Virus record (IMG/VR): IMGVR_UViG_3300009128_000130
Span: 1 to 24,042 of that record
Origin: a virus
Direction: 5' to 3' (one strand)
Length of the DNA stretch: 24,042 bases
Positions 18,288-23,896 of the stretch are shown here, one piece after another. Each line of letters opens with the position of its first letter. Position 1 is the stretch's first letter. Position numbers and translations under genes: made by a program. The notes under the pieces were generated by a model. That model saw only the letters and a program-made list of their open reading frames with translations. It did no database searches and was not told the DNA's origin.

Positions 18288-19108
18288 TTCTCCTCCTTTG
18301 TATAAGTTCCCGAGCCATTATCAACAAGGTTGTGTTTGAGAATAAAAGTATCTCGCTTTGCCTCCCAATCGTCTCCCTTGAAAGGCTGGTAGAACTGTTT
18401 TCCATTGAGTACCGCATAGATACCCCCACTGGGAATGCGTTTATCTTTCTTTGATTTCTCTATCTCGGGGATGTCCTCCCACCCTGCACGGTTGAGCCAA
18501 GTACTTGGATGCGGGATAAACCGCCCCCCGTCTTTTCGCCATTGCTCATTATCCCTCCAAAGATTAACCGACCTCACAATTTCCTTAACCATAGATTTCA
18601 GCCCCCACTGTGACCAAATCCGTTCAGCGTTGCGTTTCCCGACCTTCCGTGGATAAGCCCCCCAGAACTCCTCAAACTCCGCAGGGTAGATAAACTCTAC
18701 TGGCTTGGGTTCGTCTTTGGGTTTCTCACCTTTAGGCTTCGAGTGACGCCTCTTGCCTGCATCTACCCGACGCTGGTGTTTTCCTGCTTGGTCATCCCCT
18801 ATAGCGATTAGGCGAGGAATGACAATCTTGCCCATTTTCCCCTCGAATAAATCCTGCTCCCGATTCAACCGTCCACGCTCCTCTAACTCGTTCAATATTC
18901 GCCTCATCTTAACTTTGCCAACTCGTAAGAATTGGGCGAGGTCATCTCCGGACATTTCAACTATTCCTGGAGTTCCCTTCTCCCACGACAGGCACATTAA
19001 GTCAATAAGGACACCCCTCGCTTCTATGGAACAAAGTCTTAACTGCATACTTGTAAGCCAGTCTTTAGTATAAAGGGGGAACCAATCCCTAACTGCGTGG
19101 TGATTCAT
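18284..19108 (-). CDS. Replisome organiser/replication initiator-like protein
   Basis: A 274-residue protein. The N-terminal 90 residues (WFPLYTKDWLTSMQLRLCSI; SGDDLAQFLRVGKVKMRRIL) form a DUF1376-like winged-helix domain. A basic, Lys-rich linker spans about residues 108-135. The second domain (FEEFWGAYPRKVGKRNAER and FIPHPSTWLNRAGWED) is the pattern found in phage replication proteins of the replisome organiser type, which bind the origin and recruit a helicase. It is placed with ssDNA-binding and RecA-like genes. The start is ATG, one base after the HNH gene's stop, with GGGGGA upstream. No helicase or polymerase is seen in the window, so the host may provide these. Confidence 0.76.
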   Translation of the reverse strand: MNHHAVRDWFPLYTKDWLTSMQLRLCSIEARGVLIDLMCLSWEKGTPGIVEMSGDDLAQFLRVGKVKMRRILNELEERGRLNREQDLFEGKMGKIVIPRLIAIGDDQAGKHQRRVDAGKRRHSKPKGEKPKDEPKPVEFIYPAEFEEFWGAYPRKVGKRNAERIWSQWGLKSMVKEIVRSVNLWRDNEQWRKDGGRFIPHPSTWLNRAGWEDIPEIEKSKKDKRIPSGGIYAVLNGKQFYQPFKGDDWEAKRDTFILKHNLVDNGSGTYTKEEK

Positions 19109-19602: not shown

Positions 19603-19620
19603 TATGTCCTCCTTTGTTTC

Positions 19621-20791: not shown

Positions 20792-21620
20792 TTTTGTCCT
20801 CCTTTGAACAAGTGAAATTTCCTTCCCTCGCCTCGGGTGTATCTTCCAAGCAGATGTCCTTGAATGGGCATCGTCTGAAAGTAGTTTTGCAATTCAACGG
20901 CGATGGGTAGAATGATTTGTCTTTCTGCGTCCGACTAATATCGGCACAGGTAGAAATTAAATCCCTCTCGAATATAGCAAGTTGGGATTGGTCTCTAAAG
21001 ACATACTGCACGACGAACCTATTTTCGCTCTCGTACCACTTTCTAATCCGTTCTATAAACTCCTCCTCTGTTTCAGATTTCTTCTGTCGTAACTTCGATT
21101 TCTTGGCTATGAGATACCTCACTCCTTTCACATCATAGCCTAATTTTCTCGCACCGTAAATGTAAGCAGTCGCCTGTTCGTCTCTCAATAAGTCGTCAAG
21201 ATACTTCTCCCCAAATGCACCAGTAGTTTTGAGTTCGTGCACCCATAAACCATTTTTATCCACACATATTCCATCAAAATACCCCTGCAACTTATTCCCG
21301 TCGGGAAGGTCAACCACAAAGTGTTCCTCTAAATTAGTAAACTTTGGGCGGTTGCCTGACTTGTCGTAGGTTTCCATTGCGACTAAACACTTCTCTAACT
21401 CAACGCCCCCTCCTTCCCATTCGTCTCTCATCAATTCTGTAACTTCTTTTATCCCATTATCTTTGGCAAGGCATTCAAATCCCTTATGGAAAACTGACCC
21501 AAAATGCAGAGCGTTTCCATAAGAGACAGGAGACAATCCTTCAATATACTTGAAGTAAAACTGCCTCTTGCAATATTTGAAAGTCCCTATCCTTGACGCA
21601 CTAACTGTCAATACGGGCAT
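20772..21620 (-). CDS. PD-(D/E)XK nuclease, Cas4/RecB-like with Fe-S cysteines
   Basis: A 282-residue protein. Catalytic landmarks are GSVFHKGFE (H45), LQGYFDGI (D116), VHELKTT (E129 and K131) and the Q motif RDEQATAYIYGA (Q149). Four cysteines frame the domain: C17 in KYCKRQ and C244, C251, C257 in NCKTTFRRCPFKDIC, the layout of the 4Fe-4S cluster in Cas4 and AddB nucleases. It is probably a 5'-3' type exonuclease that prepares ends for the Sak4/ssDNA-binding pair downstream. The ATG follows AGGAGGAGGAGAA. No other Cas genes are present, so a CRISPR role is unlikely. Confidence 0.88.
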   Translation of the reverse strand: MPVLTVSASRIGTFKYCKRQFYFKYIEGLSPVSYGNALHFGSVFHKGFECLAKDNGIKEVTELMRDEWEGGGVELEKCLVAMETYDKSGNRPKFTNLEEHFVVDLPDGNKLQGYFDGICVDKNGLWVHELKTTGAFGEKYLDDLLRDEQATAYIYGARKLGYDVKGVRYLIAKKSKLRQKKSETEEEFIERIRKWYESENRFVVQYVFRDQSQLAIFERDLISTCADISRTQKDKSFYPSPLNCKTTFRRCPFKDICLEDTPEAREGNFTCSKEDKNGDTEN

Positions 21621-21798
21621 TTCTCCTCCTCCTTTTATATGCGGCGAATTCCCTACTTCGCCTCACAATTCCTCTAATTGTAGCAGATAAATTCTCTCCA
21701 CCTACACGCACCTGCTCTTCACCGAATTCCTTTAATTCTTTATCTACAAGCAGGTACCAGACTTTTGAATATCTGCCTCTCCTAACCTTTGTCGCCAA
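21601..21798 (-). CDS. Small basic protein, TTG start
   Basis: A 65-residue, Arg/Lys-rich protein (ATKVRRGRYSKVWYLLVDKE; SATIRGIVRRSREFAAYK; RRRRNARIDS). I place the start at TTG 21798 because AGAGGAGGAAGCCA lies immediately upstream; the more upstream TTG has no such site. It overlaps the nuclease gene by 20 bases and the zinc microprotein by 17. The highly basic C-terminus and a predicted helical middle suggest nucleic acid binding. No family recognised. Confidence 0.7.
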   Translation of the reverse strand: MATKVRRGRYSKVWYLLVDKELKEFGEEQVRVGGENLSATIRGIVRRSREFAAYKRRRRNARIDS

Positions 21799-23068: not shown

Positions 23069-23315
23069 TATTTTCCCCTCTTTCCTTTTCTTGCAGATAT
23101 GTGATTAACAATTCTCTGATAAGTCCGAACTTGGCGTGAATTCCAAGAATACGATAATCGGAGTCGTTGTCGAGAATTTCAAGTATATCCTCTATCGTTC
23201 TCTCAGCGTATTCGAGCCAAGTTTCCTCGTCATCGAGTTGATTAGATGAAGCGTCAGGTCGGGTAACACCCTCTATGAATCTGTCCAACGCTCCACTATC
23301 GAGTGAAGATTTCAT
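23061..23315 (-). CDS. Acidic hypothetical protein, first gene of the early operon
   Basis: An 84-residue acidic helical protein (MKSSLDSGALDRFIEG; AERTIEDILEILDNDSD; IRELLITYLQEKER). The start is the ATG at 23315, preceded by AAAAGGAGGAAATAAA; a longer reading frame would run through the promoter and leader. It is the first gene after the strong promoter at 23371-23399. No family recognised. The N-terminus (DRFIEGVTRPDASSN) could be flexible. Confidence 0.76.
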   Translation of the reverse strand: MKSSLDSGALDRFIEGVTRPDASSNQLDDEETWLEYAERTIEDILEILDNDSDYRILGIHAKFGLIRELLITYLQEKERGENNG

Positions 23316-23370
23316 TTTATTTCCTCCTTTTGATTGAAACCCCGAGGGGGAACGCCCCCCCCGTTTTATA

Positions 23371-23399
23371 AATATAAAAAACGGTAAAGGTAATGTCAA
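23371..23399 (-). promoter_or_regulatory. Strong early promoter
   Basis: TTGACA (23399-23394), exactly 17 bases, then TATATT (23376-23371): a perfect -35, five-of-six -10 and ideal spacing. Transcription would start near 23364, about 50 bases before the first early gene. The leader contains a G/C-rich hairpin (gggggaacgccccc on the plus strand, 23346-23359) before the ribosome binding site. Confidence 0.72.
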
Positions 23400-23417
23400 G
23401 CCCCGTTTTACCGTAAA
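23381..23417. promoter_or_regulatory. Operator-like repeats around the early promoter
   Basis: TTTACCGTAAA (23407-23417) is a palindrome with one central base, lying 8 bases upstream of the -35. A half-site with the same bases, acggtaaa (23381-23388), lies in the spacer. The 10-mer ccccgtttta occurs at 23359-23368 and 23401-23410. The positions would let a bound regulator block or help polymerase. Confidence 0.5.
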
Positions 23418-23428
23418 TGCTTATTATG

Positions 23429-23474
23429 TAATAAAATAGGGGAGTCCGTGTATTCTAATTACGGACTCCCCTAT
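23429..23474 (-). terminator. Rho-independent terminator
   Basis: A perfect 14-bp inverted repeat (23436-23449 and 23461-23474, core aggggagtccgt) with an 11-base loop. In the minus direction it is followed by TTTATTA, giving U-rich RNA after a G/C-rich stem. It separates the small-RNA promoter from the early promoter. Confidence 0.75.
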
Positions 23475-23503
23475 GGGAGATAGACACAAAGGAGGATTGT
23501 GTC
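23429..23503 (-). ncRNA. Candidate small RNA with an anti-Shine-Dalgarno loop
   Basis: Starting 7 bases after the -10 of a strong promoter, the predicted RNA begins with a perfect hairpin: stem GACACAA (23503-23497), loop TCCTCCT (23496-23490), stem TTGTGTC (23489-23483). A short single-stranded stretch and the 14-bp terminator follow, giving about 75 nt. No start codon with a ribosome binding site is present. The loop is the exact complement of AGGAGGA, the binding site of eight early genes here. The layout is like that of bacterial small RNAs that block translation through C-rich loops. It is a prediction from sequence only; a simple 5' leader is the alternative. Confidence 0.55.
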
Positions 23504-23509
23504 GGTACA

Positions 23510-23537
23510 AATATAGTAATCGGCTATGTTATGTCAA
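23510..23537 (-). promoter_or_regulatory. Promoter of the candidate small RNA
   Basis: TTGACA (23537-23532), a 16-base spacer and TATATT (23515-23510). The -35 lies in the last codons of the VRR-NUC gene. A start 7 bases after the -10 falls on the G of the first hairpin stem. Confidence 0.62.
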
Positions 23538-23859
23538 CCCTCTTATGACCTGCGTCCATTAGGGTAGTCACAACTTCCGCTACACTTCTACATATTGCGG
23601 TATGCCACCCCTCGCTGTTTAAGTCACAAAGCCACTGCGTCTGTGTCGGGGTAGGTTTACGCTTCCCGACTTTTAATTCAATAGCCACTCGTGGCTCTGT
23701 GAATATCAAAATATCGGGGACACCTCGCTTCAAGCCTGCTCGCTTTAGGTTAGCCCCTGCTATTGGAGAACGCTTCCCCTCATTTGGACAGTGACACCAG
23801 AGCAGTCCTAATAAATCCAACACCTCGGCGACCCTGTTCTGGAGTTCTCTTTCTTTCAT
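23524..23859 (-). CDS. VRR-NUC domain nuclease
   Basis: With the ATG at 23859 the protein has 111 residues. It has an N-terminal helix (MKERELQNRVAEVLDLLG), then KRGVPDILIF (GxPD motif) and RVAIELKVGKRKPTPTQTQW (ExK motif followed by a Q), the pattern of stand-alone phage VRR-NUC proteins, which are PD-(D/E)XK-fold nucleases able to cut branched DNA. The length equals the family domain alone. A longer form from TTG 23904 would add residues coded by a 10-base repeat, but it has no ribosome binding site. The site at 23859 is weak (AAGAGAAG). Confidence 0.85.
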   Translation of the reverse strand: MKERELQNRVAEVLDLLGLLWCHCPNEGKRSPIAGANLKRAGLKRGVPDILIFTEPRVAIELKVGKRKPTPTQTQWLCDLNSEGWHTAICRSVAEVVTTLMDAGHKRVDIT

Positions 23860-23860
23860 C

Positions 23861-23896
23861 TTCTCTTGTCTTCTCTTGTCTTCTCTTGTCTTCTCT
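23861..23896. repeat. 10-bp tandem repeat before the VRR-NUC gene
   Basis: ttctcttgtc occurs three times without change (23861-23890) and a fourth partial copy (ttctct) follows. On the coding strand this is GACAAGAGAA repeated, a purine-rich block ending just before the ATG. It could change expression by slipped copy number or act as the weak ribosome binding region. Confidence 0.8.

Follow-up and report, generated by a model that had tools for sequence, protein, structure and literature searches.

Small RNAs that display the complement of the Shine-Dalgarno (SD) sequence in a loop are known in bacteria and scarcely in phages. Bacterial anti-SD-loop RNAs repress translation, and include the csRNAs (PMC4438229, PMC4507080, PMC3091779) and NfeR1 (PMC10746234). 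The streptococcal CiaR-dependent csRNAs (ccnA-E) are 51 to 202 nt long, combine an intergenic promoter and an intrinsic terminator with an unpaired anti-SD sequence, frequently a CCUCCU in the first loop, and are thought to block translation initiation (PMC3091779, PMC4438229, PMC4507080). Streptococcal phages have been noted to show limited similarity to csRNAs (PMC3091779), and in pneumococcal phages csRNA3P is located at attP (PMC9764711). The cuckoo RNAs, or ar14 (NfeR1), of rhizobia form hairpins with unpaired anti-SD sequences that silence mRNAs at the ribosome-binding site (PMC10746234). The c4 RNA of phages P1 and P7 and the sar RNA of P22 are phage RNAs that block translation initiation of a phage regulatory gene, and a term search of a 2025 review of phage-derived RNAs found no anti-SD class (PMC12197685).

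Among these systems, the csRNAs come closest in architecture to a locus that we analyzed in an uncultivated phage, represented in IMG/VR by a linear record 24,042 bases long (the window, here the whole stretch), where all main genes lie on the minus strand: a promoter, an anti-SD sequence in a loop and a terminator are common to both (Table 1).

Architecture of the minus-strand unit

A first-pass annotation had proposed a small-RNA gene composed of a TTGACA-N16-TATATT promoter, a start on the first base of a 7-bp hairpin whose loop reads UCCUCCU, and a 14-bp terminator followed by TTTATTA. The promoter, P1, is present base for base on the minus strand, the arms of both hairpins are fully complementary, and the tail reads as described. 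The final codons of the VRR-NUC gene contain the P1 -35 element, and the predicted start, G23503, is the seventh base after the -10 element and the first base of the 5′ hairpin, which an 8-nt linker (UAUCUCCC) separates from the terminator. The window has three promoters that match at least 11 of 12 consensus positions, where simulated genomes average 0.36; none of 150 simulated 24-kb sequences contained the complete unit.

The structure prediction suggested in the annotation for positions 23503 to 23429 returned the two hairpins with a minimum free energy (MFE) of -33.5 kcal/mol (z -7.9), and none of 200 shuffles was as stable. The MFE and centroid structures agree, each containing both hairpins; folded alone, the 5′ hairpin reaches -7.1 kcal/mol (z -4.1) and the terminator hairpin -25.2 kcal/mol (z -7.1). 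The same two hairpins can form on the reverse strand, but a T tract follows the hairpin on the minus strand only, so the direction of the unit is clear. Since the terminator has a long loop (11 nt) and its U tract is broken by an A, termination is perhaps only moderately efficient, and read-through may occur.

The annotation had also stated that no protein start is present. This holds for ATG, which does not occur in the predicted RNA, but not for alternative starts: there is a GUG frame of 10 codons and a UUG frame of about 21 codons, both without an SD sequence. With neither an ATG nor an SD, the protein-coding reading was set aside, as was the reading of TCCTCCT as the SD of a plus-strand gene, for which there is no start codon at the proper spacing. 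No overlapping gene was found at the unit. In csRNAs an anti-start codon (CAU, or anti-GUG/UUG) stands unpaired near the anti-SD; in the predicted RNA a CAU lies at the boundary of linker and terminator, partly within the terminator stem. What one would ask of a generic trans-acting anti-SD small RNA (its own promoter, its own terminator, an exposed SD complement and no protein) was found at this locus. These sequence features give good support to a self-contained small-RNA gene that displays an anti-SD in a loop, and the predicted RNA is likely to be transcribed.

Table 1. Positions of the predicted small-RNA unit, its neighboring elements and candidate targets in the window
Feature	Position	Strand	Description
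VRR-NUC nuclease gene, upstream of P1	23524..23859	-	Pfam PF08774, E 4.5e-6
Promoter P1	23510..23537	-	TTGACA 23537-23532, 16-nt spacer, TATATT 23515-23510; 11/12 consensus positions
Predicted small RNA, 75 nt	23429..23503	-	Putative transcript; start G23503, end in U tract
5′ hairpin	23483..23503	-	GACACAA-UCCUCCU-UUGUGUC; perfect 7 bp; 7-nt anti-SD loop 23496-23490
Intrinsic terminator	23429..23474	-	14-bp perfect stem (23474-23461 / 23449-23436), 11-nt loop, UUUAUUA tail
Promoter P2 of early operon	23371..23399	-	TTGACA-N17-TATATT; ACGGTAAA/TTTACCGT inverted repeat (23381-23388, 23407-23414) around -35
Candidate target: SD AAAGGAGGA of first early gene (start 23315)	23322..23330	-	9-nt perfect complement of loop
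Candidate target: SD AAAGGAGGA of PD-(D/E)XK exonuclease gene (start 21620)	21627..21635	-	9 nt
Candidate target: SD CAAAGGAGGA of Sak4-like annealing ATPase gene	20797..20806	-	10 nt
Candidate target: SD ACAAAGGAGGA, gene start 19602	19607..19617	-	11 nt perfect; 14/15 with hairpin arm
Candidate target: SD ACAAAGGAGGA, gene start 18287	18291..18301	-	11 nt

Promoter neighborhood and related records

Promoter P2 lies downstream of P1 at a spacing of 138-139 bp. The two are alike beyond their hexamers (with the hexamers held fixed, 5 of 20,000 P1 shuffles align as well), which suggests that P1 is a diverged duplicate of P2 or that both share a regulator. The inverted repeat at P2 looks like an operator. 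Along with the inverted repeat, P2 (23358-23414) carries two copies of a direct repeat, CCCCGTTTTA. Just past the P2 start, the leader of the first early gene forms a strong G-run/C-run hairpin (23340-23364). The early and replication genes downstream of the unit encode a PD-(D/E)XK exonuclease, a Sak4-like ATPase, a DUF3846 protein and a single-strand-binding-like protein, and are followed by the packaging and structural genes, including the terminase. On the other side, three tandem copies of TTCTCTTGTC (minus strand GACAAGAGAA) stand directly upstream of the VRR-NUC start codon, in the SD position (23861-23890), and imperfect 11-bp repeats of the AGCAATGCTTT type, possibly iterons or operators, occur near the contig end (23899-23992).

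The nearest record by adjacent gene, L005, shares 68% identity in VRR-NUC, and its VRR-NUC gene likewise has a purine-rich repeat upstream. A single early promoter follows that gene and has GGGGCTTGACATTA in common with P2; around its -35 element, at the place equivalent to P2, it carries an inverted repeat of its own (CACGAGG/CCTCGTG), as if the operator had diverged with its repressor. Neither P1 nor either hairpin was found at the corresponding place in L005, so that either this lineage gained the predicted RNA gene or L005 lost it. Relatives that keep the promoter and lose the stem and loop had been named in the annotation as evidence against the unit. L005 does have an early promoter without the unit; however, the relationship is remote, and the counterpart of that promoter here is P2 rather than P1.

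Terminase relatives reach only about 40% identity, and searches with the first early gene, the PD-(D/E)XK gene, VRR-NUC and the terminase gave no relative near enough for covariation analysis. The unit showed no DNA similarity to phage records and no match to Rfam families, and its pattern was absent from five related records. The exact hairpin motif had two matches in IMG/VR (L003 and L004), neither with the second hairpin; the L004 match was rejected, as it resembles a plain ribosome-binding site of an opposite-strand gene.

Candidate targets and alternative readings

The loop with its 3′ flank (UCCUCCUUUGU) has a perfect complement at five early SD sequences (Table 1). A match between the loop and the phage's own early genes had been proposed in the annotation, with the caution that complementarity to an SD is partly expected by chance. 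The proposal holds up in a weak form: the mean duplex energy of the loop was -11.3 at early and -7.3 at late genes (p 0.003; a few of the gene starts compared were set by us and could be wrong, a source of noise in either group). Its specificity is less clear, as the generic 16S tail follows the same trend (-10.5 early versus -7.0 late) and the early-gene excess of the small RNA over the 16S tail has a p of 0.07. The loop beats the generic tail at the genes starting at 23315, 22604, 21620, 20791, 19602 and 18287; when the UCCUCCU core was fixed and the flanks randomized, an equally good match arose in 4-10% of trials. Most pairing between loop and ribosome-binding sites is generic SD complementarity. 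Given the parallel behavior of the 16S tail and of random flanks, SD pairing by the loop is expected, the early preference likely arises from strong early SD sequences, and a match specially tuned to the phage early genes is only suggested. Against longer pairing, a duplex that reaches into the stem has to open nucleotides 6-18, at a cost of about 7.7 kcal/mol.

We lean, with confidence only slightly better than even, toward reading the unit as the gene of a trans-acting anti-SD small RNA that would act on SD sequences; that the phage's own early genes, and not those of the host, are its main target is a more tentative proposal, which we hold as possible. P1, as a diverged copy of P2, would give rise to a transcript of ~75 nt running from the first base of the 5′ hairpin to the intrinsic terminator ahead of P2. 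The 5′ hairpin would display UCCUCCU as a mimic of the 16S rRNA anti-SD, and this loop could pair with AGGAGGA-type ribosome-binding sites, the duplex zipping into the weak 3′ arm to give 9-11 bp at at least five early genes and so blocking their translation. Since P1 resembles P2, the RNA and the early mRNA would probably be produced together, in which case the RNA may damp or time the early and replication proteins in an incoherent feed-forward loop. Such an RNA, if real, would be a minimal device that sets the translation of the phage's early operon (or of the host's messages) through the ribosome-binding site itself, and its promoter looks like a copy of the early one.

The main rival, which we regard as unlikely, is a leader with a conditional terminator. 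P1 would then be a second promoter of the early operon, and the terminator would stop most transcripts; read-through, by antitermination or through low efficiency, would give a long mRNA whose 5′ loop reaches 157 nt downstream to pair in cis with AAAGGAGGA at the first early gene. The tandem arrangement and likeness of P1 and P2 are consistent with such a leader, as are the imperfect U tract and the full complementarity, over 9 nt, of loop and first SD within one read-through transcript. The hairpins also stand right after an early promoter, like the put sites of phage HK022, where two hairpins after an early promoter let RNA polymerase pass terminators. Yet P2 already serves the operon past the terminator, and the predicted ensemble, in which MFE and centroid coincide, holds no alternative antiterminator fold.

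Two further readings dispense with a phage target. In one, the loop imitates the 16S tail (CCUCCUUU) and reduces the translation of many host messages that have a strong SD. The strongest matches fall on early phage genes, so the phage would also strike its own replication genes, and a single RNA at an ordinary level would be unlikely to outcompete ribosomes globally; even though the loop with its flank, UCCUCCUUU, is close to the 16S tail and target specificity past the SD core is marginal (P 0.04-0.10), we think a host-directed mimic distinctly unlikely. In the other, the hairpin at 23429..23474 is simply the VRR-NUC terminator, accompanied by promoter-like and loop sequences that arose by chance and have no small-RNA function. 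A terminator between VRR-NUC and the early promoter would serve a purpose of its own, and L005 does without an RNA at this place; against this, the promoter and start position agree with the 5′ hairpin and its anti-SD loop, a combination absent from the simulations, and P1 resembles P2, which makes the chance reading highly improbable in our view.

Similar units in other phages and comparison with known RNAs

The pattern TTGACA-N16-18-TATANT-N5-30-TCCTCCT matched at least 119 loci in IMG/VR. Near duplicates and SDs of opposite-strand genes were removed (L190 and probably L087 were dropped on the latter ground) and the window was left out, giving 73 loci. Among the matches listed, a strong terminator followed the promoter and TCCTCCT in 13 of 73, against 8 of 158 with scrambled motifs (Fisher p 0.0027), the control being pooled from two motifs with 6/81 and 2/77 among the matches listed and including one locus that is itself a TCCTCCT unit (L133) and another, L249, counted under both motifs. 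The enrichment statistics are modest. The units are short, mostly intergenic and apparently unrelated, and CCTCC is sometimes repeated (L133, L139, L166, L184). Two, L141 and L088, fold like the RNA predicted here: the loop of a 5′ hairpin holds the anti-SD, and a second hairpin comes after it, in L088 without a clear T tract. Genes beside the units encode terminase, head proteins, helicase, endolysin, antirepressor, replication initiator and an Erf-like protein. An Rfam scan of 15 such loci gave no match, and neither did comparison of L184, L139, L133, L166, L117 and L196 with phage records.

When 3.3 Mb of phage DNA, selected without regard to TCCTCCT, was searched blind to the motif, 17 strict promoter-terminator units emerged, none with CCTCC; the promoter-CCTCC-terminator class is therefore rare, and we do not claim it to be common. 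From the sequence patterns, anti-SD RNAs may recur in phages. It is doubtful, in our assessment, that many phage lineages independently evolved minimal anti-SD RNA genes, of which the one here would be driven by a duplicated early promoter and act as a brake on the phage's own early translation. The enrichment leads to the general prediction that phage transcriptomes hold short anti-SD RNAs, which annotation would overlook because they encode no protein and have no conserved sequence.

Two other groups of loci were noted. A conserved promoter-proximal RNA, GGGCTAATG...TTCCTCCTTT...CATTAGCCC, occurs in loci of ~4-8 kb (L125, L129, L134, L137, L145, L153, L168, L185, L200, L202), several on contigs of microvirus size; it is closed by a 9-bp stem with the anti-SD inside and sometimes a start codon soon after, and three members (L185, L200, L202) had no match in Rfam. 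At L091, L101, L108, L109 and L180, a repeated promoter is accompanied, right where transcription should start, by a GCCCGGCAGG-TTCCTCCTCTCCCTCTCC-CTGCCGGGC hairpin whose loop is rich in C and U; no obvious terminator follows.

The unpaired anti-SD and the intrinsic terminator that mark the csRNAs are both found in the predicted RNA. In contrast to the csRNA genes, no CiaR box (TTTAAG-N5-TTTAAG) lies upstream of P1, where the minus strand at 23538-23560 reads AATGGACGCAGGTCATAAGAGGG; P1 has instead a normal TTGACA -35 element of the phage early type, and there is no Rfam or sequence match. The cuckoo RNA NfeR1 has a mode of action similar to that proposed here, but cuckoo RNAs have three hairpins with CCUCCUCCC in each, whereas a single UCCUCCU hairpin and a terminator are seen in this unit, again with no Rfam match. 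Lacking the CiaR box, the triple CCUCCUCCC hairpins and any Rfam match, the predicted RNA belongs to neither the csRNAs nor the cuckoo RNAs. RsaE/RoxS also covers SD sequences with an unpaired C/U-rich seed; against that family (RF01820) the unit scored 14.6 bits, with a threshold of 79 (E 2.8), and does not belong to it. The c4 and sar RNAs pair with one specific antirepressor mRNA, whereas the seed of the RNA predicted here is the SD complement itself, and several genes match it.
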